Part shown: positions 31,569 through 42,206 of the stretch, piece by piece | How the letters are laid out: each line of letters begins with the position of its first letter | Numbering within the stretch: the first letter of the stretch is position 1 | Assembly (NCBI GenBank): GCA_021414025.1 | Contig: JAIOPG010000005.1 | Location: 1 to 64,000, forward strand | Direction of reading: 5' to 3' | DNA: 64,000 nt | From: Planctomycetota bacterium | GTDB taxonomy: Bacteria > Planctomycetota > Phycisphaerae > Phycisphaerales > SM1A02 | Program-made: the position numbers and the translations under genes | The notes under the pieces: model-generated | Seen by the model: only the letters and a program-made list of their open reading frames with translations | Told to the model about the DNA's origin: nothing | Databases searched by the model: none

Positions 31569-32321
31569 TCAGCGCGGATCCTTCGCCGGCTTTTTCCCGG
31601 GCTTTCGACCGCGTGATTTCGCCGGCTCAGAGGACGGATCGTTGGCGGCCTGCTTGTCGCCATCCTTGCCGACTTCCTCCTTGTCGAGCGTGCGGGCGCC
31701 TCGCCGCGCTCCCGCCGCAGCGGCACCGGCGGCCGCCAGCACCCCAGGCGCTGGAACGATCGTGCCGTCCACGCGAAGATTGTCCAGCCGCGCGTTGCCG
31801 CTGGCGCCCGTGGCCCCCGAGAGCTGGATGCGGAGCCGGAGCGAGCCGTTGTCGGCGAAGGTGAACGCGGAAAGGTCCATCGCGTGGCGCACCCACTGCG
31901 TGGTACTCGCCGAGATCGTCCCGACATCCAGCCACGACTGGCCGTTCCAGATCTGGACCAGCATGCCCGCAAATCCGCTGGTGCTGCGCCGCGCCGCCAC
32001 GCTCAATTGAAGCTGCTGCATCCCCTGCGTGTCGACGTCGATGACCATCGACTTGGAATTCTGCGACGAGCCGGTGACGGTGAGCCCCTGCCCAGCGGCG
32101 ACTCCGCTGACCGCGTTGATGTCCGTTCCCGACAGCACGCTCAGGCCGCCGGTGAATTCCGCCAGCGACAGACCGCCGTGGCCCGTGTCCGCCACGAGCG
32201 TCGCGGGCACCGTGCCCGTCAATGCATTGAAATCCCAGGCCGAGACCACGTCCGCACCCGCGCCCCGGGCGCAGCACAACACCATCGCCATCGAGGCGAG
32301 CCAATTCTTCCCATTCGACAT
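31569..32321 (-). CDS. Secreted PEP-CTERM-like protein with basic tail
   Basis: 250 residues with a signal peptide (MSNGKNWLASMAMVLCCARGAGA) and a strong AAGGAG ribosome binding site 5' of 32321. The body resembles carbohydrate-binding-like jelly-roll proteins (NGQSWLDVGTISASTTQWVR, NARLDNLRVDGTI). Near the end comes [22 protein letters not shown], which looks like a PEP-CTERM-like anchor (Pro motif, small hydrophobic helix, Arg cluster). Unusually, about 42 further charged residues rich in Lys, Asp, Pro and Ser follow. Function unknown; probably surface or periplasmic. Confidence 0.7.
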   Translation of the reverse strand: MSNGKNWLASMAMVLCCARGAGADVVSAWDFNALTGTVPATLVADTGHGGLSLAEFTGGLSVLSGTDINAVSGVAAGQGLTVTGSSQNSKSMVIDVDTQGMQQLQLSVAARRSTSGFAGMLVQIWNGQSWLDVGTISASTTQWVRHAMDLSAFTFADNGSLRLRIQLSGATGASGNARLDNLRVDGTIVPAPGVLAAAGAAAAGARRGARTLDKEEVGKDGDKQAANDPSSEPAKSRGRKPGKKPAKDPR

Positions 32322-32488: not shown

Positions 32489-33550
32489 CTACAGCCCGGA
32501 GCTTCGGAAGTGGTTCGGGTCGATCAGCCAGAGCCAGTCGTCGAAGAGGAACTCCACCCGCGCCGCCAGCAGAGCGATGCGACCCATGACCGTGTAGCCG
32601 AACGCCGCGCCGAAGGTGATCATCAGGAACCAGATACCCACGCGAGCCGCGCCGCCGATCGCGCCCTTGTGCTCGACGCTGAAGAAGAAATAGACCAGGC
32701 AGCAGATCACGCCGGTCACCAGGATGATGTTGGCCACGCTCGCCCAGAGGCTGGCCCAGAGGTCGGTGGCTCCACCGCTTCCGGCGACCGTCACAATCAG
32801 CGGCTTCATGGTGGCCTGCGCCTGTGCCATCAGGTCGCTTTCGATGTGGCTGACGATCTTCAATCCGGCGGTGACGCCCACGATGAAAGCCAGCGGCCAG
32901 GCGCTGATCCATCCGCCCTTGGGCATCAGGCGCCACAGCATCATCACGCCCAGGATCAGGGCGAGGGCCATGCTGATTTTCTGCGACATCACCGGGTCGA
33001 CCAGCGATGGCTGCACCATCGATTTCACCAGCCCGGGTGTGAGTGCGCCGAACATTTTCGGCACCAGCGTGTCCCAGAAACCGATCACGCCCCAGTACGC
33101 CGCACTGACGCCGACCACCGTCGCCTCGGCGACCTTGTAGAAGGGATTGTCGGCGTAGAGGAAGCTGAAAACCGCGAGCGTGAAGAAGGCGGCGAGCCAA
33201 AGTCCGATGGTGCGCGGCCAGGAAAGCGTGATGGCGCTCTGGGAGGGATTGGCCTGCTGTGCGGCCGCGAATGCCCGCGGCGGAACTTCCTTCCACTCCG
33301 CCCACACGACTGTTTCTCCCGCGGCTGCGACGACCTTGGCGTCCTTGGAACCGGCGCCCTGACCCGGCACCGTCGGATTCGTGCCGGGCGCCGCGGCCTT
33401 CGTGCCGTCACCCGCACCGGGCATGGTCGCGGTGACCTCCGAGCGCTGCACATAGATGCGCCCCAGCCCCTGCCCGGTCATGCCCCGCACCACCAGCAAG
33501 GCCAGGAAGATCGCCCCGATGACGAGCCATGTCTTGCGCTGGCGGCTCAT
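32489..33550 (-). CDS. Polytopic membrane protein, last gene of the GlmL-like operon
   Basis: 353 residues. One N-terminal membrane helix (WLVIGAIFLALLVVRGM), then a Pro/Gly/Ala-rich exported stretch, and about six more helices (IGLWLAAFFTLAVFSFLYA, ISMALALILGVMML and others). A conserved-looking segment NPFYKVAEATVVGVSAAYW sits before the third helix. I recognise no characterised family. The start overlaps the previous stop (ATGA, 33547-33550). Being last in the run of overlapping genes, it is probably a membrane subunit of the same complex. It ends 168 bases before the start of the next gene, at 32321, which has its own ribosome binding site. Confidence 0.85.
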   Translation of the reverse strand: MSRQRKTWLVIGAIFLALLVVRGMTGQGLGRIYVQRSEVTATMPGAGDGTKAAAPGTNPTVPGQGAGSKDAKVVAAAGETVVWAEWKEVPPRAFAAAQQANPSQSAITLSWPRTIGLWLAAFFTLAVFSFLYADNPFYKVAEATVVGVSAAYWGVIGFWDTLVPKMFGALTPGLVKSMVQPSLVDPVMSQKISMALALILGVMMLWRLMPKGGWISAWPLAFIVGVTAGLKIVSHIESDLMAQAQATMKPLIVTVAGSGGATDLWASLWASVANIILVTGVICCLVYFFFSVEHKGAIGGAARVGIWFLMITFGAAFGYTVMGRIALLAARVEFLFDDWLWLIDPNHFRSSGL

Positions 33551-34434
33551 GCGGCACCTCGGTGTCGGCGGGCGAAGAAGATCGTGTTGCCGGCGATGAT
33601 CAGTCCCACCATCAGCAGATGGCCGACCAGCTGCGGTGCCATGCGGCGCTGTGCCTGCTGGTATTTCGGCGAGATCTCCCCGCCGATCGACGAGTTGACC
33701 ATGGACTCATACTCCGCCGCGCCCTTGATGGCGGCCAGGAGACCCGCAATCTGCTGCGGAAAGTAGGGATAGAGCTGCGAGGCGCTGACGCCGGTGCAAC
33801 CCGCGATGAAATTGAGCTTGTCGTTGCGGGCGCTCACCACGTACTGCACCCACTCCTTGCTTCCGGGGTAGCCGGCGCTGACCGAGATGAGCAGCGGAAA
33901 ATCACCGACTGACTTCACTCCCTTGAGGATCGGGATGGTGCTGGTCGCCTCGCCGCGCGAATCCTTGGGGAAGGCGATGGCGAAATCCGTGAGCAGCAGC
34001 TTCATCACCGCCTCGTTGCCCGCCTGGAAGCCCATGTTGACGAAGTCCTCACCCTCGCGCATCGCCGGATAGTCGGTGCGGATGACCTCCTGGATGGTCT
34101 GCTGCGCCATCTGGTTGCCCAGCGGCCAGAGCGCGATGAAGACGATGCGCAGCCCCTTTTGGGCACATTGATGCATCAGGGCCGTGGCCATCGGCTGCAG
34201 CTCGCCGGAGCTCGCCGGGTCGTAATCGAAGGAGAAAAGCACCAGGCTCTTCGCGGGCAGCTTGTCGATCTCGTCGAAGGCGGCCTTGGCGGCGAGCGTC
34301 GGCGCCTCGGGCAGGGTCTTGCCGGTGATGCCGATCCAGAGGATCGGGCCGGACACAGCGAGGAACATCAGCAGAAAGATCCAGCGCCGGTCGATCCGGT
34401 CCAGCCGCTCGAACCAGGAATTGCTTGGGCTCAT
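33547..34434 (-). CDS. Membrane-anchored protein with FDYDP/GELQPM motifs, GlmL-like operon
   Basis: 295 residues. An N-terminal helix (about 18-38), an exported Rossmann-like alpha/beta domain (about 60-260) and a C-terminal helix. Striking motifs are SFDYDPASSGELQPMATAL (68-86), an ALWPLGNQMAQQ segment, FVNMGFQAGNEAVM, GCTGVSASQLYPYF and GLLAAIKGAAEYE. I recall uncharacterised proteins with the same motif set in Chloroflexi and other deep-branching phyla; this is memory, not a search. Start and stop both overlap neighbours by 4 bases. Likely the extracytoplasmic sensing or binding subunit of the complex, which is inference. Confidence 0.85.
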   Translation of the reverse strand: MSPSNSWFERLDRIDRRWIFLLMFLAVSGPILWIGITGKTLPEAPTLAAKAAFDEIDKLPAKSLVLFSFDYDPASSGELQPMATALMHQCAQKGLRIVFIALWPLGNQMAQQTIQEVIRTDYPAMREGEDFVNMGFQAGNEAVMKLLLTDFAIAFPKDSRGEATSTIPILKGVKSVGDFPLLISVSAGYPGSKEWVQYVVSARNDKLNFIAGCTGVSASQLYPYFPQQIAGLLAAIKGAAEYESMVNSSIGGEISPKYQQAQRRMAPQLVGHLLMVGLIIAGNTIFFARRHRGAA

Positions 34435-35129
34435 GCGTCACCCCCGCCCAGCCAGCTGCGGTCGAGGCCGAAGAGGATGCGCAGGCCTGTGGCGGCCACG
34501 CCCAGCGCGATGCCGATCATGATGGCGCGGCTGCCCGCCGTGTTGAAGACCTGCATCACATAGACGCTGAGATTCTCCAGGCGCAGCCCCGAGGCCCAAT
34601 CGGGAAGCCAGCCGGTCAGCAGGACTCCGGCAAAGGTGCGCCCGAGCAGAATGATGAACGCGGTGATCAGCAGCAGCACGGCCTCGGTGTTCTTGGCCCG
34701 GAAGGCGCGGAAGGCGGCGCTGGCCACGAAGAACGCCAGCAGGGCAAACATCGTGCTGGTCAGCGGGGTCATCACATACTCGTACATCCACATGAAGGCG
34801 GAACCCTCGGTGTCGTTGCCGCCGCTGTACGGCGCCTGCGGATATTGCGTGTTGGGATGGATGCCGATCTTGCTCATGCCGATGAAGAGCATGGCGATGA
34901 AGGTGCCAAAGGTGATGATGCTGTAGCCCCAGCCCGCCTCGCGCCGGCTGAGCTTGCCCAGATGCTGCTTGGCCAGGCTGAGGGCGCCGAGAATGAATGC
35001 GATGGCGGCGATCACGCTGAAGATGTCGGCGAACATTTCGCCGGCGCGCTCGGCCACGGGAATGAAGGAACTGAAGAGGATGCCAAAGCCGGCGATGACC
35101 GCGATCCAGAGTGGAATGACGCGCTTCAT
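34431..35129 (-). CDS. Polytopic membrane protein, GlmL-like operon
   Basis: 232 residues with about six membrane helices (VIPLWIAVIAGFGILFSSF, FADIFSVIAAIAFILGALSL, YSIITFGTFIAMLFIGMS and later ones). Segment ending SRAIMIGIALGVAATGLRILFGLDRSWLG is typical of the C-terminus of an inner-membrane subunit. No characterised family recognised. It begins 3 bases after the DUF6754-like gene and its stop overlaps the next start (ATGA, 34431-34434), so it is clearly part of the operon. A permease-like role is possible but nothing in the sequence names a substrate. Confidence 0.85.
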   Translation of the reverse strand: MKRVIPLWIAVIAGFGILFSSFIPVAERAGEMFADIFSVIAAIAFILGALSLAKQHLGKLSRREAGWGYSIITFGTFIAMLFIGMSKIGIHPNTQYPQAPYSGGNDTEGSAFMWMYEYVMTPLTSTMFALLAFFVASAAFRAFRAKNTEAVLLLITAFIILLGRTFAGVLLTGWLPDWASGLRLENLSVYVMQVFNTAGSRAIMIGIALGVAATGLRILFGLDRSWLGGGDA

Positions 35130-35132
35130 GCC

Positions 35133-36140
35133 TTAGCCGCCCACCATCTTGTAGAGAAAATCGAGAACGCCGGCGGCGCCGGTGGAATCCGGCGAGCGTG
35201 CCACGATGGTGGCAACAATGGCACCCAGCACCACCATCACCATGACGGCGAGCTTGCCCGCGTCCTGACCGCGCAGGGTTCCAAGTTGTGCGGGCTCGCC
35301 GCTCAGATAGGCGCTCGCCGCGAAGAACTCCTCGCCGATCAGCGTGTAGTCGCACGCCGCGACGAAGAAAGGAAGCTGGCTGCTCTCGGCGGTACCGGCG
35401 ATCTGGATGGCGCCGATCGCGTTGCCGGTCTCGGCGAAGATCAGGCTCTCGGCGTAGAAGCAGCCCATGTAGAAGCAGGTCGCGGGCTTCTCGCGGACCA
35501 TGTAGCCGGCGACGTGGGCCACATAGCCGAACTGCTCGTCGGTGATGTAGTTGATCCGGTCGTTGGAGAAGCCGTCGGGCCGCCCCGCCGAGAGGTAGCT
35601 GGCCCGCACCACGTCGCGGGCGGCCTCCATCACCAGCGAGCGGCTGGTGGGCACTTCGATCGTGGCGTCATATTCGGCGGCGGTCTTGGCCACGCGCCCA
35701 AGCATGGTCAGGCCCGCGACCGTCTGGATGTTGTCCATGTCCTGAATGCCGGGCACGAAGAGGATCGCGCGACCCATTTCGGTGGCGCGGCCGACGGCGT
35801 TGTCGACGGCCTCGAGTGCGGCGATGCGGCGGATCTTCATCGGGCGGCCACGCTTGGCCATGGCCACGGAGACGGTGACCGCCAGGCCGACGAAGATGAT
35901 CCAGAGGAAAAGTGCGGTTTTGCCCTGATTAAACCAGCCATTTTCAGGCTCGGGCGCCTTCGCATCCGCCGCTTGAGGCGGGTCTGAGGCCAGAACCGCG
36001 GCGGCTTCGAGCGAGGCCATGTGCGTCAAGGACGAGGCCTGCGACGCCTTGGCGAAACCGATCGAAATGAAAAGGAAGGCGACACACATCCACGAATGAA
36101 TCGTGAAACGCCGGGAAGGGATCACTCGCGTGCTCCGCAT
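35133..36140 (-). CDS. DUF6754-like membrane protein, GlmL-like operon
   Basis: 335 residues started at 36140 (MRSTRVIPSRRFTIHSWMCV). A signal-like helix is followed by a second helix (ALFLWIIFVGLAVTVSVAMA), a long cytoplasmic or periplasmic domain with VPGIQDMDNIQTVAGLTMLG, SYLSAGRPDGFSNDRINYIT and CDYTLIGEEFFAASAYLSGE, and a C-terminal helix (LAVMVMVVLGAIVATIVA). I recall these motifs as DUF6754, a family without known function. It is 22 bases downstream of the barrel/KOW gene and 3 bases upstream of the next membrane gene. Probably a core subunit of the complex. Confidence 0.8.
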   Translation of the reverse strand: MRSTRVIPSRRFTIHSWMCVAFLFISIGFAKASQASSLTHMASLEAAAVLASDPPQAADAKAPEPENGWFNQGKTALFLWIIFVGLAVTVSVAMAKRGRPMKIRRIAALEAVDNAVGRATEMGRAILFVPGIQDMDNIQTVAGLTMLGRVAKTAAEYDATIEVPTSRSLVMEAARDVVRASYLSAGRPDGFSNDRINYITDEQFGYVAHVAGYMVREKPATCFYMGCFYAESLIFAETGNAIGAIQIAGTAESSQLPFFVAACDYTLIGEEFFAASAYLSGEPAQLGTLRGQDAGKLAVMVMVVLGAIVATIVARSPDSTGAAGVLDFLYKMVGG

Positions 36141-36162
36141 GGCGGGCACTGTAACCAAAAAT

Positions 36163-37290
36163 TTACGTTTCGATGCGCTCGACATTGGCCCGGGGGACGG
36201 TCACGGTGCCGCCGCGCTCCAGCGCCACTTCCAGCACCCGGGCCTTGCCGCCGGAGTCCAGCATCGCCGGCTTTGAGGGCAGCGCCGACACCGTGCCCAG
36301 CAGCCCGAAGTGGGGGTCGCGGATGATGCGGACCCAAACGCCCGGAGCCAGTTCCCCGCCTGTGTCGGGCGCCGACTCGGCAGCGCCGGGCGCGGCGGCA
36401 TCCAGGGGAATGACGATCTCCGGCCGCATCACGCCTGCGCGGATCTGGGTGGCGCCATTCACGCTCGCCTCGCGGCCCTTGTGGGAGGCCAGCAGATCGA
36501 AGGTGCGCCGCGCCATGGCGATCTCGCCGAAGCCCTCGGTCAAAATCAGTGTGAGCCCGCACTTTTCGCTGCCGGTGATGGCCACGCCAAGGTCGTAGCC
36601 GAGGAAGTCGCGCAGGTCAGCGTCATCCATGCCGCCCGAGACGATCGCGGCCACGCCGATCGACTTCGCCTTGGCGATCGAGGCGGCGGTCATGCGCGCA
36701 CCGCCGATGACGACGCAGCCTTTCATCTCGGGGCGGATCAGATCCTCGTGCAGCTCTTCTTCGGCGGCCTTGCAGGCCAACATGATCGGTCCGCGCGCCT
36801 CGCCACCCACGCCGAAGATGCCCTGCACCAGCGCCGCGTCGGTCTCGATCACGGCGCCTTCATTGGCCATCACCTCGACCACGCGGCCCGGCACGTGGGC
36901 CATGATCTGGATCGGCAGCGGCGCGCCACGCAGCAGCACCATGCCGCTGGAATCGCTCACGCTCTCGATCGTCCCGGTGGCCGCGGCCTTCACCTCGGTC
37001 TTCATCATGCCGAAGACGCCCTTGCTGCGGGCGATGGGCTCATCCTGCTTCACGCTGTCGCCGACTTTCTTGAGCATCAGGCCGGGCAGATCCTTGGGCG
37101 GGCAGGCGAGAAGGCTCGCCACCTTCATTGGGGTGACGTCGCCTTCGAGCTGCGTGTAGGCGACCACTGTCGAGCCCTGCACGCGGTCGCCCATCGCAAC
37201 CTGCACCTTGCCCGCCGTGGGCAGCGCGCGGCGCGTGCGGTAGACGCTGCGCGAGCTGACTCGAAGACCTGGTGTGTATGCCTTAGCCAT
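36163..37290 (-). CDS. Soluble adaptor with biotinyl/lipoyl-like barrel and KOW-like end, GlmL-like operon
   Basis: 375 residues, no membrane helix. Residues about 60-140 look like a barrel-sandwich hybrid domain as in biotinyl/lipoyl carriers (KVGDSVKQDEPIA, then GVFGMMKTEVKAAATGTIES), but no obvious modified-lysine MKM motif is present; MMKTE is the nearest. A second region has VIGGARMTAASIAKAKSIG, a possible nucleotide-fold element. The C-terminus (VWVRIIRDPHFGLLGTVSAL) looks like a KOW motif. It overlaps the GlmL-like stop by 8 bases. It could bridge the ATPase and the membrane subunits. Confidence 0.8.
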   Translation of the reverse strand: MAKAYTPGLRVSSRSVYRTRRALPTAGKVQVAMGDRVQGSTVVAYTQLEGDVTPMKVASLLACPPKDLPGLMLKKVGDSVKQDEPIARSKGVFGMMKTEVKAAATGTIESVSDSSGMVLLRGAPLPIQIMAHVPGRVVEVMANEGAVIETDAALVQGIFGVGGEARGPIMLACKAAEEELHEDLIRPEMKGCVVIGGARMTAASIAKAKSIGVAAIVSGGMDDADLRDFLGYDLGVAITGSEKCGLTLILTEGFGEIAMARRTFDLLASHKGREASVNGATQIRAGVMRPEIVIPLDAAAPGAAESAPDTGGELAPGVWVRIIRDPHFGLLGTVSALPSKPAMLDSGGKARVLEVALERGGTVTVPRANVERIET

Positions 37291-39130
37291 AGACGTGGAG
37301 AGCCTTGATCCATTTGTTCAGACTGGCGCGGCGCTCGGCGGGATCCTTTGGCAACTCAAGCGGCCGGCCGCGCGCATCCAGCACCACACCCAACGGACCG
37401 CCGCGCACCTTGCGCGTCACGGGCTTTCCGGGGCCCTGCCCGAAGTCGAAGCCTCGCTCGGGCTTGGCTTCGATTTCCGCTTCCGCTCCGGCGGAAAGTT
37501 GAATCTGTGCGATGTCGCCGCAGTTCAGGCTGCCGCTCGCGTCGGCGTCCTTCGTCGGGCCATCGCCCTGCTTGACGACCTTCATGGTCCACGCGAAGCA
37601 TGGCTTGCCGGTCTTGCCCTGGCCCTTGGCGCAGACCGCGCTGCCCAGCACGACCAGGCAATCCTTGACCACCACCTCGAAGGCCGCCTGCGTGTGCACG
37701 CTGGCGAAGACGCCCAAGTGCGGCATCATGAAGATGCTGTCCTTGGCGAGTTCGGTGAAGCCCTCGGGCTCGAAGCTGTCCAGCAACATCGCTGCGGTTT
37801 GTTCAAGGCGCGGCGCGTGGCTGAGCACGCCGCCGGATGCAATCAGCAAGTCCATGCGCATGCGATCGACTAGGCTGGAGCCCGCCTCCTGCTGCGAGAA
37901 AACGTCGCCGACCGTGCGCTGCTGCTGCACGCCTTTGAGATTGGTGGCGAAGGCGCGGTGCTGAATGAACGCCAGACGCAGCGCTTCGCGGGCCACCGCC
38001 TGCTCGAAGATCAGGGCCTCGAGCGTCTGCGGAATCGTGGTCGGGCGGATCATCTTGTTCTTGACGCGATTGCGCAGCTCGCGCTCATCCATGTCCACGT
38101 GCACCCAGCGCAGCACTTGATCGAGGCCGGCCTCCGCGCAGACATTGGAGATGGAGTAGCTCATTCCCAAATTGGCGCTGACTGTTCTATTAAAGACGCC
38201 GTCGTAGACGCTGAAGACGTCGGTGGTGGCGCCCCCAATGTCGACGCAGACCGCGTTGATGCCGCGGCGCTTGGCGATTTCCTGCAGGATGTCGCCGACG
38301 GCGCCGGGCGTTGGCATGATCGGCGCGTCGGCCCAGCCGATGAGCTTGTCGTAGCCGGGGGCGTGGGCCATCACATGCTCAAGGAAAACGTCGTGGATCT
38401 TTTCGCGGGCGGGGCCGAGGTTCTCTCGCTCCAGCGTGGGGCGCAGGTTGTCGACCACGGAAAGGTCGAAGCCGGGCGCGTCGAAGACCTTGCGGATGGC
38501 CGCGGTGGCGTCGCGGTTGCCCGCGTAGATCAGGGGAAGCTGGTACTCGCCGCCGAAGCGCGGGCGCGGCTTGGCCGGCGCGATCAGCTCGGCGATTTCC
38601 ACCACCTTGCGCTGGTCGCCGCCGTCGGTGCCGCCGGAAATCAGCACCATGTCGGGGCGCAGTTCGCGGATGCGCTGGATCTGCTCGTGCGGCTTGCGCT
38701 TGTCATTGCCGGCGATGGTGTCCATCACGATGGCGCCGGCACCCAGTGCGGCGCGCTTGGCGCTCTCGGCAGTCATCTCTTTCACGACGCCCGCGACCAT
38801 CATCTGCAGGCCGCCGCCGGCGCTGGAGGTGCTGACGTAGATGTCGCAGCCGTTGGGGTCGCTGCGCGAAGTGCGGCGGATGATCTTGCCGTCGTTGTCG
38901 ATCAGCTTGCGGCCGGAAAGCTCCTGCAGCTCGGTGACGGAGTTGACCACGCCCATGGTGACGTCCGCCAGCGGCTCCTCGACGGTGGTCGGCGCCTCGC
39001 CGCGGAAAGTCTGGCGCCAGTGGCCATCCTTCTTCTCCAGCATGATTGCCTTGGTGGTCGTGCTGCCGCAGTCGGTGACGACGACGATTTCGAGATCTTC
39101 TTTTTGAATTCCTGCTTTCACGAGGGTCAC
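37283..39130 (-). CDS. MutL/GlmL-like ASKHA ATPase, core of the seven-gene operon
   Basis: 615 residues. ASKHA-fold ATPase of the glutamate mutase L (GlmL/MutL) family: phosphate-1 loop VTDCGSTTTKA (18-28), phosphate-2 loop VDIGGATTDVFS (296-307) and adenosine motif ASGGVLSHAPR (431-441). The last 100 residues form an extra domain ending in GGPLGVVLDARGRPLELP. GlmL proteins are thought to reactivate cobalamin-dependent glutamate mutase, but no GlmS or GlmE gene is in the window. Instead, soluble and membrane partners overlap it. It is therefore more likely an ATPase of a separate membrane-linked system. Confidence 0.85.
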   Translation of the reverse strand: MTLVKAGIQKEDLEIVVVTDCGSTTTKAIMLEKKDGHWRQTFRGEAPTTVEEPLADVTMGVVNSVTELQELSGRKLIDNDGKIIRRTSRSDPNGCDIYVSTSSAGGGLQMMVAGVVKEMTAESAKRAALGAGAIVMDTIAGNDKRKPHEQIQRIRELRPDMVLISGGTDGGDQRKVVEIAELIAPAKPRPRFGGEYQLPLIYAGNRDATAAIRKVFDAPGFDLSVVDNLRPTLERENLGPAREKIHDVFLEHVMAHAPGYDKLIGWADAPIMPTPGAVGDILQEIAKRRGINAVCVDIGGATTDVFSVYDGVFNRTVSANLGMSYSISNVCAEAGLDQVLRWVHVDMDERELRNRVKNKMIRPTTIPQTLEALIFEQAVAREALRLAFIQHRAFATNLKGVQQQRTVGDVFSQQEAGSSLVDRMRMDLLIASGGVLSHAPRLEQTAAMLLDSFEPEGFTELAKDSIFMMPHLGVFASVHTQAAFEVVVKDCLVVLGSAVCAKGQGKTGKPCFAWTMKVVKQGDGPTKDADASGSLNCGDIAQIQLSAGAEAEIEAKPERGFDFGQGPGKPVTRKVRGGPLGVVLDARGRPLELPKDPAERRASLNKWIKALHVYG

Positions 39131-39148
39131 CGTTTGGAGGGTTGGAGC

Positions 39149-39583
39149 CTACACGCCCGGCGAAGGGGGTTGCGGTGCTTTCGTTGCGGGATTCTCCGCA
39201 CCCGAATCGCCTGTCTTGCGCCTTCCCGCCTCGCGCTGCGCTTCCAGTTCATCCAGCCGGGCGAGCATCCAGGGGATCGCGCCGCGCCGATCGAGATAGT
39301 TCGCCACTTCCTTCCAAGCTGCGGGATCCATCACGATTCCGGCGAAGGGCGCAAGCGCCTGCATGCCCTGCCCCGTCAGCACGCCCATCGGCCGCCAGCT
39401 TTCCAGAAAGATGCCTGCGGGCTGTGCCATGCCACGGGCCACAATTTTGCCCAGCAGATTTTCCACGACCTCACGCTGCGCCTCCGTCGGTTCGGCCGGG
39501 CCGGGCGGATCGACCGCGAAGGCGTGGCGGATTTTCTCTCGCCATGTTTTTGGTCCGGCATTTTGCGGGTCGGTGGTCATCAT
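39149..39583 (-). CDS. Small conserved-looking protein, first gene of the GlmL-like operon
   Basis: 144 residues (start at 39583; a second ATG follows directly). The central part GMAQPAGIFLESWRPMGVLT and GMQALAPFAGIVM is amphipathic to hydrophobic and could lie on a membrane or on a partner protein; the ends are charged and low in complexity. I recall short proteins with similar LES..P and G.QA..F.P.. patterns near GlmL-like genes in other phyla, unverified. It lies 18 bases before the ATPase gene, so it is probably the first gene of the operon. The ribosome binding site is weak. Confidence 0.65.
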   Translation of the reverse strand: MMTTDPQNAGPKTWREKIRHAFAVDPPGPAEPTEAQREVVENLLGKIVARGMAQPAGIFLESWRPMGVLTGQGMQALAPFAGIVMDPAAWKEVANYLDRRGAIPWMLARLDELEAQREAGRRKTGDSGAENPATKAPQPPSPGV

Positions 39584-39623: not shown

Positions 39624-40079
39624 TTACCCGCCTCGCCCGCTTGCGATAGGCGGCTGTCCATCGGCAAGAGGCGTCTGTGCGCCAGCATGAGCGACATGCG
39701 CATAAATGCTTCTCTTGCGGTCGACGACCGATTCACCGCGGCCCAGCGGAACCTGCATGCTTCCGCGAAATGATCGACGCGACCGAGTCACGGTCAACAG
39801 AACTGCGTCGCCACCATCGCGACATGATCGGACGGATTTCCACGGCATGGTGCGCACCCGAAGCGGCTCGCGCAGCGTGATCTTCTCATCCGTTAACTCC
39901 ACATCGCTGGGCAGAAAGAATCGGATTAGTGCGAGAAACATTCCCAGCAGCGCGAGTGCTCCCCACATCCAGTCGCCCGAAGTCAGGGCGACGCCCGCGG
40001 TGAGAAGGAGCAGCGCTCCGCACGCTCCCGTCGCGGCAAGCGGCCGCTCTTTCGCGGGCCAGGAGCGCCATCGCATCAT
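39624..40079 (-). CDS. Small membrane protein with possible PH-like domain
   Basis: 151 residues. Two hydrophobic helices (GACGALLLLTAGVALTS and WGALALLGMFLALIRFF) are followed by a beta-rich stretch (DVELTDEKITLREPLRVRTM then PWKSVRSC) like the bacterial PH-like domains of YdbT/YdbS-type membrane proteins; this is a pattern-level guess. The ATG at 40079 overlaps the cupredoxin gene stop (ATGA, 40076-40079), so the two are co-translated. Forty bases separate it from the next gene on the same strand, so the operon may continue. Confidence 0.65.
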   Translation of the reverse strand: MMRWRSWPAKERPLAATGACGALLLLTAGVALTSGDWMWGALALLGMFLALIRFFLPSDVELTDEKITLREPLRVRTMPWKSVRSCRDGGDAVLLTVTRSRRSFRGSMQVPLGRGESVVDRKRSIYAHVAHAGAQTPLADGQPPIASGRGG

Positions 40080-40939
40080 TGCACCTTCAGCTTGCCGTTC
40101 ATCATCCGCCAGTGGCCCGGATAGGTGCAGATCAGCGGATAGGTGCCGGGCTTCGTCGGCGCGATGAACCAGAGCTCTCCCGTGGTGTTGGGTGCGGTGA
40201 GCCCCATGATTTCAAGCACTTTCGGCGAGTCGGGCACATATTGCCGCTGCTTGCCGATCGCGCCCTCGCCGAGCTTGTCCGCAGCGACCCCGATCTCGCT
40301 GAGCGATCCCGGCGTGCACACTAGCAAGTTGTGCTGCATGGAATCTGGGTTCGTCATTACGACCGCGACGACCGCATCATGCGACACCGTGAACTCCTTC
40401 GGGTCCCACGCCATTTTCCCGGGCACGGTCGTGGTCTTCAGAACGACCGGTTTCCAACTCGCAGCTTCGCTTGGTCGATCGCTTTCCGGAAGCATGAAGA
40501 GCGCACGGATGCAGGCGGCCTTCACGATGCGGCTCGGTGAATCTTTTGCTTTGGCGACAAGTGTTGGGGCAAGCGCCTTCAAATCAGCCACGGGTTGTGC
40601 GGCGAGAATCATGGTGAGATCGTTGCGACCCAGGCAGGCGTCGCATGCCTCGATTTCGGCGAGCGTGGCCGCGGCGAGAGAGGTGGAAGCGCTCTTGGCC
40701 TTGGCGCTGATTGCGGCGATGCGCTCTCCTTGCGGAACGCCTGCATCCCGCAGCGGATCAAGCGCGGGACTTTCGGTTTGCGCCGCGCCGGTTGCCGTTC
40801 CCGAAGATGGAGCGGAACCTGCCGCCGGCGCATGCGAATGTCCGGAATGGTCTTGGGTCTCGCCGGTGTTCTGGGCCGCCGCTCTCCCGCAAAGGAGCGA
40901 CATCAGGGGCAGCGCTACCAATAATTTTGCGAATTGCAT
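40076..40939 (-). CDS. Exported cupredoxin-domain (azurin/auracyanin-like) protein
   Basis: 287 residues. Signal peptide at about 1-23 (MQFAKLLVALPLMSLLCGRAA), then a His/Ser/Ala-rich linker (DHSGHSHAPAAGS). The middle is helical and may be HEAT-like. The C-terminal ~120 residues form a type I copper domain with DSMQHNLLVCTPGS supplying one His, and PLICTYPGHWRMMNGKL supplying Cys, His and a Met. That is the full blue-copper ligand set. It is likely a periplasmic electron carrier or copper sensor. Divergent from eboD; the shared regulatory region is 40940-41036. Confidence 0.85.
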   Translation of the reverse strand: MQFAKLLVALPLMSLLCGRAAAQNTGETQDHSGHSHAPAAGSAPSSGTATGAAQTESPALDPLRDAGVPQGERIAAISAKAKSASTSLAAATLAEIEACDACLGRNDLTMILAAQPVADLKALAPTLVAKAKDSPSRIVKAACIRALFMLPESDRPSEAASWKPVVLKTTTVPGKMAWDPKEFTVSHDAVVAVVMTNPDSMQHNLLVCTPGSLSEIGVAADKLGEGAIGKQRQYVPDSPKVLEIMGLTAPNTTGELWFIAPTKPGTYPLICTYPGHWRMMNGKLKVQ

Positions 40940-41036
40940 GCGTTCACGATAGCGGAGCCGCTTGGATTTCGTCACGCTTCCATGGCCACGCTTTGGCCGC
41001 TGTTCAACGGCGGTCGACGCCCTACTCTTCATTGTG

Positions 41037-42206
41037 ATGTCCAATCCGTGGATCTCATCCCAGTCGCAGTCGGAGCACGCCTGGACCACGCAGGTCGGCA
41101 CCGTGCTGGATCACCGCGTCTGGTGGTCGGACCAAATTCTGTCGCCGGGAAATGCCGCGTTCGCCGCGGCGATGGAAGGGATCCACCGAAACTGCGTCGC
41201 GTTCATCGACTCGGGCGTCGCCGAACACTGGCCGGAGCTGGGCGGACAACTTCTGGGAGCCTTCGCCGCGTTGCCGGGTCCCGCACCCAAGCTCGCGCAC
41301 ATCGAGACCATTCCCGGCGGCGAGGCTTGCAAAGATGGCTTGAAATTCACCGAGCATGTCGCCAAGAGCATTTTTGATCATGGTGTCAGCCGCCACGGCG
41401 CGGTGATCGCAATCGGCGGCGGCGCCGTGCTCGACGCGGTCGGCTTCGGCGCGGCGATCGCCCACCGCGGCGTGAGGCTGGTTCGCGTCCCCACCACCAC
41501 GCTGTCGCAGGACGATTCCGCGATGGGCGTGAAGTGCGGCGTGAACGCGTTCGGGCAGAAAAACTCGCTGGGCTCCTTTGCCGCACCATGGGCGGTGCTC
41601 TGCGATGGACACTTTCTCGCCACCCTGCCGATCGAACATTGGCTGGGCGGATTCAGCGAGGCGGTCAAGATCGCGCTGCTGAAGGATCCCGAGCTCTTCG
41701 AGCAAATCCATTCGCACGCCTCGGCCATCGTCTCACGCGACCTGAACCTGGCGCAGTCCGTCATTCGCCGCAGCGCGTGGCTTCATCGGCAGCACATCCT
41801 TGAGGGGGGCGATCCCTTCGAGCTGGGCACCGCGCGGCCGCTGGACCACGGCCATTGGAGCGCGCACCGACTCGAAGCCATGAGCGGCTTCGCCGTACCG
41901 CACGGGCAGGCGGTGAGCATCGGCATCGCGCTGGACGCGCTGCTGGCGGTTGAAATGAAAATGCTTGAGCCCTCCGTCGCCACGCGCATCATCGCCACGC
42001 TGACATCGCTCGAACTTCCGATCTGGCATCCGCGGCTCGCCAACGGGGACGAACTGGAGGAGGGTCTCGAGCACTTTCGGCAGCACCTGGGCGGCATGTT
42101 CTCCATTCCGCTGCTCACCGCGATCGGATCGGCGGAGGAAGTTGCGGTCGTCGACCCACAGCACATCCGCAAAGCCGTCGCTTCGCTTCGTACACTGGCT
42201 TCATGA
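41037..42206 (+). CDS. eboD: EboD-like sugar-phosphate cyclase (3-dehydroquinate synthase-like)
   Basis: 389 residues. Dehydroquinate synthase fold: nucleotide-binding AIGGGAVLDAVGFGAAI (125-141), RVPTTTLSQDDSAMGVKCGV with substrate and metal residues, GGFSEAVKIALL, and GHWSAHRLEAMSGFAVPHGQ with zinc-ligand histidines. It is clearly not the shikimate AroB but the divergent type found in ebo (eustigmatophyte bacterial operon) clusters, where a cyclase probably acts on a sugar phosphate. First gene of the cluster; a possible promoter lies before 41037. Its stop overlaps the next start (ATGA, 42203-42206). Confidence 0.85.
   Translation: MSNPWISSQSQSEHAWTTQVGTVLDHRVWWSDQILSPGNAAFAAAMEGIHRNCVAFIDSGVAEHWPELGGQLLGAFAALPGPAPKLAHIETIPGGEACKDGLKFTEHVAKSIFDHGVSRHGAVIAIGGGAVLDAVGFGAAIAHRGVRLVRVPTTTLSQDDSAMGVKCGVNAFGQKNSLGSFAAPWAVLCDGHFLATLPIEHWLGGFSEAVKIALLKDPELFEQIHSHASAIVSRDLNLAQSVIRRSAWLHRQHILEGGDPFELGTARPLDHGHWSAHRLEAMSGFAVPHGQAVSIGIALDALLAVEMKMLEPSVATRIIATLTSLELPIWHPRLANGDELEEGLEHFRQHLGGMFSIPLLTAIGSAEEVAVVDPQHIRKAVASLRTLAS

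Follow-up and report, generated by a model that had tools for sequence, protein, structure and literature searches.

A conserved operon in Planctomycetota and other phyla joins a MutL-type ATPase gene to four membrane protein genes: a candidate ATP-driven membrane system

All seven minus-strand reading frames (g1 to g7) that an earlier note had placed at positions 32489-39583 of the window, the 64,000-nucleotide stretch of Planctomycetota DNA analysed here, are present when checked against the ORF coordinates (Table 1). They are closely packed: from the coordinates, g1 and g2 are separated by 18 bases and g2 and g3 overlap by 8, g4 and g5 are 3 bases apart, and g5/g6 and g6/g7 each overlap by 4. 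At the g3/g4 junction, the first ATG of g4 gives a 23-base overlap and the ATG at codon 16 a 22-base gap; with the latter start, the spacing fits the original description of gaps of 22 bases or less and overlaps of 4-8 bases. The extent first proposed holds for g1 to g7 but not for the beginning of the set, as the operon has one more gene at its beginning, g0, which ends 40 bases before the g1 start used at the time. The listed ORF of g1 is longer than that version and runs on to 39736.

Table 1. Genes of the operon in order of transcription, with positions in the window
Gene	Position	Strand	Length	Features
g0	39624..40079	-	151 aa	pair of hydrophobic helices (by eye) followed by a PH-like stretch
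g1	39149..39583	-	144 aa from the start in the earlier note	small protein; family-less
g2	37283..39130	-	615 aa	MutL-family ASKHA ATPase
g3	36163..37290	-	375 aa	barrel-sandwich hybrid, middle RraA-like by eye, KOW-like C-terminal part
g4	35133..36185	-	350 aa	DUF6754; predicted Rossmann-type domain between two membrane helices
g5	34431..35129	-	232 aa	multi-helix membrane protein (hydropathy)
g6	33547..34434	-	295 aa	predicted Rossmann-type domain between two membrane helices; SFDYDP..ELQPM motif
g7	32489..33550	-	353 aa	multi-helix membrane protein (hydropathy)

We assign g0 to the operon because all 32 of its profile matches in the fetched loci, the window copy counted, adjoin g1; before further loci were fetched, profiles from three seeds had returned an identical 31 matches, each next to g1. 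In Pfam, g0 matches bPH_6 below the cut-off (E = 0.0014), and no family is over the cut-off for the window copies of g1, g5, g6 and g7. The g1 protein has no Pfam or NCBIfam match at E up to 1, and its own profile yields 62 matches across 61 loci. Together, g0 and g1 adjoin the core genes in Planctomycetota and Latescibacterota, and in only two fetched Zixibacteria loci.

The product of g2 had been described as an ASKHA ATPase of the GlmL/MutL family with three nucleotide-binding motifs. The family is confirmed by the Pfam MutL model (PF13941; residues 16-491, E = 9.8e-127, 423.9 bits against a gathering cut-off of 27), beyond which g2 carries ~120 further residues. In a 22-row alignment, where g2 is 56-90% identical to its 21 relatives, TDCGSTTTK, VDIGGATTD and SGGVLSH, which we take to be the three ASKHA motifs, occupy almost wholly invariant columns. 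Membership of the same Pfam family would also be expected if g2 were an ordinary gene for GlmL, the methylaspartate mutase accessory ATPase, adjoining unrelated membrane genes. However, g2 scores below the cut-offs of all three GlmL-type NCBIfam models (233.4 bits against 475 for the GlmL equivalog NF040745, 167.1 against 204.05 for TIGR01319 and 214.1 against 600 for the ornithine Or-4 model), and in a MutL tree of 43 of 77 rows, from which L134 and L142, intended for the GlmL group, are absent, its clade is separate from that of GlmL. The glmL genes that we read encode ~460-470 aa and lie between glmS and glmE (in the example L133, GlmE was confirmed by a match and GlmS by eye), whereas the 615-residue g2 has its extra residues, lacks a mutase partner and is accompanied by g3 and the membrane quartet g4-g7. 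The lack of a mutase gene claimed for the window extends to its whole genome, in which GlmE has no match anywhere. Among 294 Planctomycetota genomes, GlmE is over the cut-off in five and matched at E 0.001 in nine; it has no match in any of the 76 genomes with g4, and all five genomes over the cut-off are without g4. Hence the ATPase does not invariably pair with GlmS/GlmE. On the sub-cut-off scores, the separate clade and the absence of GlmE from g4 genomes, we reject the GlmL reading, which we consider extremely improbable: g2 is an ASKHA ATPase of the MutL type that stands apart from glutamate mutase.

The genes g2 and g3 are associated: in 65 of the 71 cases that allow the test, g3 lies directly 3' of g2, and in L145 one ORF holds both. 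A less clean fusion, with g3-like matches in two frames, is seen in L146; both fusion ORFs lie in loci lacking the quartet and may belong to another system. Of the soluble barrel-sandwich/KOW-like protein originally described, the barrel stands, with Biotin_lipoyl over the Pfam cut-off, whereas KOW is weak in the window protein. RnfC_N is also matched weakly there (15.4 bits, cut-off 25.6), and NQRA_N is not listed at E up to 1. At that same E, 35 g3 members match Biotin_lipoyl (32), RnfC_N (28), NQRA_N (15) and KOW (12), and RraA reaches 0.42 at best. The N-terminal barrel of g3 is thus like the barrel-sandwich domains of RnfC and NqrA (best member E = 2e-7 to RnfC_N), but the window g3 is below the RnfC_N cut-off and the Fe-S site is not conserved.

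Within the quartet, g4 is a member of DUF6754 (PF20539; E = 3.7e-119, 397 bits against a gathering cut-off of 27), a Pfam model whose name carries no function. An N-terminal hydrophobic segment precedes the two membrane helices that flank its domain. Across 65 rows, down to 41% identity, 35 columns are invariant, several just after predicted strands; E57, E167, E173, D200, E206, E207, Q139, Q182 and Q191 are identical in every row (alignment numbers, to which 79 is added for g4 residue numbers). Invariant residues of g5 are T126, S137, R141 and R144 (53 rows) and those of g7 are D134, N135, E142, R324 and R331 (50 rows). Over g2-g7 as a whole, the only invariant cysteines are C199 of g4 and C21 and C491 of g2, and the alignments contain no conserved cysteine cluster for Fe-S centres.

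The predicted models of g4 (residues 80-350, pLDDT 93.8) and g6 (pLDDT 95.3) appear to be Rossmann-type, nearest to sirtuins, transhydrogenase domain III and CODH epsilon, with the weaker resemblance for g6; this is a fold group that we take to be the DHS-like nucleotide-binding class. Among the folds listed by VIA-align, to which the comparison is limited, the best match of the g4 model is 1s7g_D (Z 12.5, 139 residues, 3.2 Å); sirtuin rows (Z 10.9-12.5) stand above the others (8.2-9.7), including transhydrogenase domain III (Z 9.7, 138 residues, 3.3 Å). Foldseek gave no match for g4 at E 0.001 or better (best 8.8e-3). Unlike these proteins, the g4 and g6 domains have membrane helices at both ends, and g4 has no GxGxxA loop. 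No sequence match was found in PDB searches: profiles of g2, g3, g4, g6 and g7 found nothing there better than E 0.1, and that of g5 gave a single sub-threshold match, to the cation/H+ antiporter subunit F 6cfw_B (E = 0.032). The g4 and g6 models are alike in the order of strands and helices; sequence homology between them was not found (hhalign probability 0.9%), nor was homology between g5 and g7.

Judging by flanking charges, the g4 domain is probably cytosolic and the g6 domain, which carries the FDYDP...GELQPM sequence and had been called exported, probably extracytosolic. Positive charge follows helix 1 of g4 in 64 of 65 rows and is found at the two ends of g6 in 56 and 60 of 61 rows; the residues ahead of helix 2 do not agree with this arrangement, with K+R above D+E in none of the 65 rows for g4 and, for g6, where that side is supposedly outside, in 39 of 61. 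This opposite sidedness of the two domains had been missed by the earlier note.

Profile searches and gene-order checks, as the earlier note had suggested, showed the core of the set conserved together in several phyla. Homologues are not scattered: in the 55 loci found with g4, wherever 3.6 kb or more of sequence follows a g4 gene, g5, g6 and g7 come next in that order (54 of 54). Some other genomes split the gene set. Within the 294 Planctomycetota genomes, g6 is present in 76 of the 76 with g4 and alone in one; g3 is found in 68 of the 76 against 3 of the 218 others, and MutL over the cut-off in 70 against 10, correlations that ignore relatedness, so that Fisher p values are descriptive only. 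The ten genomes with MutL and without g4 comprise the five with GlmE (G010, G040, G098, G235 and G290), one with another MutL type (G197) and four with the operon's own ATPase type (G053, G067, G073 and G153), of which G153 is 99% complete and lacks g6 along with g4. Conversely, six have g4 without MutL over the cut-off (G014, G037, G041, G050, G145 and G292). Outside this phylum, g4 occurs in 54 of 64 Latescibacterota genomes and in one of 194 Verrucomicrobiota genomes, whose ATPase falls among Planctomycetota rows, which suggests transfer or a misfiled genome. No DUF6754 was found on plasmids, and none of 12 pattern matches in IMG/VR was confirmed. The core of g2-g3 and g4-g5-g6-g7, plus g0-g1, very probably consists of modules inherited together.

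In Zixibacteria, all 60 sampled genomes have DUF6754, with 2-6 matches each, and 51 of the 60 have a single MutL match; two (G333 and G342) have DUF6754 and no MutL match. The G333 assembly is one 3.74 Mb contig, about its whole size, and this organism can probably do without the ATPase. Of the 35 Zixibacteria loci listed for their arrays, 25 contain three or four copies of g4, a tandem multiplication of the quartet that the first description had missed. Paralogue classes of g4, g5 and g7 agree closely at six groups, the best of four cuts (adjusted Rand 0.96-0.98), and those of g6 less so (0.55-0.58); with three or four groups, the values spread from 0.08 to 0.99. Mean-field coupling over 169 quartets (~59 effective at 62% identity) gave noise: among the top 174-208 pairs, 66-93 linked different proteins, which is close to chance level. 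Neighbouring genes, mostly named by eye, are PdxA-, RlmE- and PurE-like in Phycisphaerales loci and PPDK, MetK/AhcY and TolQ/TolR-like in Zixibacteria, where a gene for a secreted 250-aa protein also lies between g2 and g3. Clustering of neighbour ORFs for a ninth conserved gene, a weak test in that one run included antisense frames, revealed only local synteny.

The reading that we tentatively prefer, though with less than even confidence, is that g2 and g3 form an ATP-driven activator that acts on the quartet, with g3 as a possible adaptor in an ATP-driven membrane complex. Switching, reloading or reassembling soluble enzymes is the role usually ascribed to GlmL-like and reactivase ATPases. 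By analogy, g2 and g3 would make up a single cytosolic unit, docked on a conserved face of g4, and ATP binding and hydrolysis in g2 would switch, reload or reassemble the quartet, which most likely would bind a small ligand or ion and move or exchange it between the two sides. How GlmL itself acts is, to our knowledge, not settled, so the analogy is weak. One g2-g3 unit might serve several quartets in turn: the 2-6 DUF6754 copies against mostly one MutL in Zixibacteria are more readily explained by an activator that is shared and can dissociate than by a fixed subunit. The ten MutL genomes without g4 and the two Zixibacteria without MutL speak against a fixed machine. Those two, and the four Planctomycetota genomes with this ATPase type and no g4, also weigh against the activator reading, as do the helix 2 charges, the weaker agreement of the g6 classes and the position of the fusion ORFs away from any quartet. 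The clients of RACo-type activators are soluble corrinoid proteins, and the activators themselves contain a redox centre. The proposed resetting of a client protein resembles the ATP-dependent reactivation by corrinoid activators, RACo and relatives (PMC6739815). In g2-g7, no conserved cysteine cluster is seen. A fuller picture, of a two-sided, ATP-switched machine with a mutase-type activator ATPase, a barrel adaptor, a four-protein membrane unit and Rossmann-type domains on opposite faces, is somewhat more speculative still.

Other readings of the quartet appear less probable. An envelope-organising machine, in which g4 would be the assembly platform of g2-g3 while g6, facing outward, would hold an envelope partner, is unlikely in our estimation. 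An ASKHA protein beneath the membrane is a feature of PilM-PilN-PilO and FtsA-centred complexes, the domains of g4 and g6 are probably opposite-sided, and the tandem g4 arrays of Zixibacteria would suit such a role, as would eight loci there in which g2-x-g3 is followed by TolQ-/TolR-like genes (three genes Pfam-checked, the others called by eye or clustering) and L163, with Band_7 and NfeD genes between two quartets. However, no such neighbours were seen in the neighbour clusters, without a targeted search, outside Zixibacteria, g4-g7 have no over-cut-off link to Pil, Gsp or Fts families (PilM, PilN and PilO are absent among the families listed for the window proteins and for g5, g6 and g7 members), and most sampled Planctomycetota manage without g4. 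Slightly less likely is a complex of the Nqr, Rnf or transhydrogenase sort that handles ions or hydride with redox coupling, with a nicotinamide nucleotide on g4, g3 as peripheral barrel and an ion path through g5 and g7. The RnfC_N- and NQRA_N-like barrels of g3 members, the alignment of the g4 model with transhydrogenase domain III and sirtuins, and the g5 match to 6cfw_B all point that way; against it, the three invariant cysteines leave no conserved site for a cluster, VPGIQDM, which is the first g4 loop, lacks the GxGxxA pattern, and the Foldseek search was negative at E 0.001. Nor do we know of an ASKHA ATPase in Nqr, Rnf or transhydrogenase complexes, which also counts against this reading. 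Finally, g4 could be a membrane-tethered, Rossmann-type enzyme with a nucleotide or phosphosugar ligand, the rest being a regulated scaffold. Its many invariant columns, several just after predicted strands, would agree with this, but we recognise no catalytic motif in g4 and a crowded interface would also explain its conservation, and we regard an enzymatic role as a distant prospect.

At listing level, no paper turned up in our literature search that names DUF6754 or connects a MutL-type ATPase with membrane genes of this kind, in keeping with the original suggestion that this set of conserved genes is undescribed. The six-gene core, g2-g3 and the quartet, occurs together in at least three phyla; that it is kept together, that g4 is in every sampled Zixibacteria genome and that the ATPase is so highly conserved is what usually marks a basic process. 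The tight phylogenetic profile, along with cultured Planctomycetota members, which probably exist, opens the question to deletion and pull-down. If the activator reading is true, a helper ATPase of cobalamin enzymes has been re-used for a membrane complex. If the two-sided machine is real, it would belong to the core of whole phyla (Zixibacteria and most Latescibacterota), and one Zixibacteria ATPase would serve several quartets that are not interchangeable.

The seven minus-strand reading frames of the operon (g1 to g7, in order of transcription) lie where the earlier note had placed them, in a genome of 2.80 Mb that is 97% complete. In a Pfam search, g2 is a MutL-family ATPase (PF13941, 9.8e-127) and g4 a DUF6754 membrane protein (PF20539, 3.7e-119), each the single match to its family in this genome; g3 passes the Biotin_lipoyl cut-off (8.6e-6), and g1, g5, g6, and g7 have no Pfam or NCBIfam family over cut-off. 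All seven genes are present, but the operon is larger than first described, as an eighth gene, g0, precedes g1. When neighbouring genes were clustered, three loci (L168, L173, and L174) proved to encode a small hydrophobic protein ahead of g1; the window's g0 reading frame is similar to it. Profiles from three seeds converged on the same 31 matches, all adjoining g1, and 32 of 32 did so after further loci were fetched. A bacterial PH domain match in g0 is sub-threshold (E 0.0014). Both g0 and g1 are scarcer than the other operon genes, and among the fetched Zixibacteria loci they were seen only in L168 and L194.

Genes of the operon and its flanks in the window
Gene	Position	Strand	Remarks
secreted protein gene	about 31569-32300	-	downstream of g7
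g1-g7	32489-39583	-	seven-gene operon
g0	39624-40079	-	upstream of g1; small hydrophobic protein
further upstream gene	40076-41101	-	directly upstream of g0, 4-base overlap

The product of the gene preceding g0 has, by eye, a cupredoxin-like stretch at its end; since related ORFs, also judged by eye, stand upstream in the near relatives L003-L006, this gene may extend the transcript in the window's lineage only. At the other flank, the secreted protein has a short hydrophobic and basic C-terminal tail that by eye resembles a PEP-CTERM-type sorting signal.

Conserved gene order, as anticipated in the earlier note, was borne out by profiles: among the g4 genes of the 55 loci located through g4, all 54 that have 3.6 kb or more of downstream sequence are followed by g5, g6, and g7 in that order (g4-g5-g6-g7, the quartet). 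Where the sequence ahead of the first g4 gene spans 6 kb or more (27 cases), both g2 and g3 lie upstream in 21; among the six exceptions, L008 and L010 have g3 only, neither gene is present in L011, L036, and L049, and L031 is an exception solely through one read-through ORF. Across the fetched loci, g3 is directly downstream of g2 for 65 of 71 g2 genes with room. The order is altered to g1-g4-g5-g6-g7-g2-g3 in L129 and L127 and to g1-quartet-g2 in L123, and the quartet and g2-g3 are divergent in L050 and L051. The set is split in L088 and L089 (g4 without g5-g7 within 20 kb) and in L092 (g4 and g5 without g6 or g7 within 20 kb); the corresponding genomes, G024, G105, and G283, have g6 at another site. 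A single ORF matches both g2 and g3 in two loci without the quartet, L145 (824 aa) and, with a less clean match, L146 (702 aa). We also note a divergent second MutL lineage in L144, L145, L146, and L147, with the quartet absent nearby and, in L145 and L146, the MutL fused to a g3-like part; in the Zixibacteria, G332, G343, G345, and G355 also have a second MutL match, where the open frames are 933-982 aa long.

Among 294 Planctomycetota genomes searched with profiles, g4 is in 76, g6 in 77, g3 in 71, MutL over cut-off in 80 (86 at E 0.001), and the mutase subunit GlmE over cut-off in 5 (9 at E 0.001). Seventy-six genomes share g4 and g6 (g6 alone, 1), 68 share g4 and g3 (g4 alone, 8; g3 alone, 3), and 70 share g4 and MutL (g4 alone, 6; MutL alone, 10). 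The system is patchy within Planctomycetota, for g4 was not found in thirteen of the sampled genomes that belong to the same order as the window but not to its family. All 60 Zixibacteria genomes sampled, among them that of L050 (labelled Zixiibacteriota), carry g4, with 2-6 matches each; MutL occurs in 58 of the 60, and 51 have just one MutL match. Of 64 genomes from the phylum of L055 (labelled Latescibacterota), 54 carry g4, as does 1 of 194 from the phylum of L045 (labelled Verrucomicrobia); all 14 named control genomes lack it. These genome searches covered the phyla already represented by a locus, and the occurrence in Chloroflexi suggested in the earlier note is plausible.

The ATPase had been called GlmL-like. 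Its membership of the MutL family stands, but it is not GlmL: with the GlmL model, whose cut-off is 475 bits, g2 reaches 233.4, and it is also under the cut-offs of the ornithine Or-4 and general GlmL family models. In a tree of 43 MutL rows, a starred branch (96/96) has the 31 operon ATPases on one side, and five GlmL-assigned rows form another group (100/99), three ungrouped rows being left out of the count; these five are the named records L178, L179, and L180, together with L133 and L138, the last from a genome with GlmE. A long branch parts the operon ATPases from the GlmL rows, in a tree with long branches meeting in places. Unlike g2, the glmL-type genes of the named records sit between glmS and glmE, as does that of the planctomycete L133 (its GlmS by eye). 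Constant pairing of the ATPase with the mutase, which the earlier note had set as a refutation, was not seen: the five genomes with GlmE over cut-off all have MutL and lack g4, and 70 genomes combine g4 with MutL. A further MutL-family type has four matches in G197 (L135 9126-10535, L136 313-1737); the L135 gene adjoins, by eye, aconitase-like and PrpF-like genes, with no recognisable mutase beside it.

In the membrane unit, K+R exceed D+E after helix 1 of g4 in 64 of 65 rows and at the two ends of g6 in 56 and 60 of 61 rows. This part of the charges supports a predicted arrangement in which the domain of g4 is cytosolic and that of g6 lies outside; before helix 2, where K+R exceed D+E in 0 of 65 g4 rows and 39 of 61 g6 rows, they add no support for sidedness. 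Single-chain models of g4 (from residue 80; pLDDT 93.8, pTM 0.85) and g6 (pLDDT 95.3, pTM 0.91) have strands alternating with helices and two flanking membrane helices. With VIA-align, the nearest fold to g4 is the sirtuin 1s7g_D (Z 12.5, 3.2 Å, 139 residues), followed by transhydrogenase domain III, 2fsv_C (Z 9.7, 3.3 Å, 138 residues), and CODH epsilon, 9c0r_C (Z 9.7, 3.2 Å, 136 residues); for g6, 1kjn_A (Z 9.1, 3.6 Å, 140 residues) comes closest, ahead of CODH epsilon, 9c0t_C (Z 8.5, 3.4 Å, 147 residues), values little above the 7 to 8 typical of models without a clear match. With Foldseek, neither model had a match at or below E 0.001. In our reading, the modelled domains on the two membrane faces belong to one broad Rossmann-type class; sequence comparison gave no support for common descent of g4 and g6. 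Thirty-five columns of g4, several acids included, are invariant in 65 rows, and g7 has invariant D134, N135, and E142 directly after a hydrophobic segment.

Three or four g4 genes are present in 25 of the 35 Zixibacteria loci listed for arrays, some of the remaining 10 being cut by region ends, and separate copies at other genomic sites also have the order g4-g5-g6-g7. In L110 and L159, a single g5-g6-g7 follows two consecutive DUF6754 genes, a hint that g4 may form heteromers. When 52 Zixibacteria quartets were clustered at four cuts, the g4, g5, and g7 groupings agreed at the best cut (adjusted Rand 0.96-0.98, six groups), with less agreement for g6 at six groups (0.55-0.58); values were 0.50-0.92 at five groups and uneven, 0.08-0.99, at three or four. 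This is most simply read as duplication of whole quartets, which were then kept apart. In the Zixibacteria locus L163 (3325-5192), CBS, Band_7 (SPFH), and NfeD genes stand between two quartets, and L201 has, by eye, a similar CBS-like gene at the corresponding place. The order g2, a secreted 250-aa protein, g3, then TolQ-/TolR-like genes recurs in the Zixibacteria loci L160, L167, L171, L191, L192, L197, L198, and L200; Pfam was used to check three of these genes, two from L160 and one from L197.

DUF6754 was not found in the 5.39 million papers searched, and among the papers listed for MutL/GlmL with Chloroflexi, Zixibacteria, or Planctomycetes there was none on an operon of this kind; a description elsewhere is possible, since most subscription journals and all bioRxiv preprints lie outside this scope.

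Gene linkage and co-occurrence are shown, together with predicted folds, and a mechanism can be proposed. Because they are adjacent and in places fused, g2 and g3 would act together, and they may do so on the side of g4 predicted to face the cytosol. A lone ATPase copy can stand alongside as many as six g4 genes, so it would serve as a shared activator. Three genomes speak most against this scheme: G333 and G342 have DUF6754 and no MutL match (G333, the genome of L163, has a 3.74 Mb contig, about whole genome size), while G153 carries g1-g2-g3 but lacks both g4 and g6.
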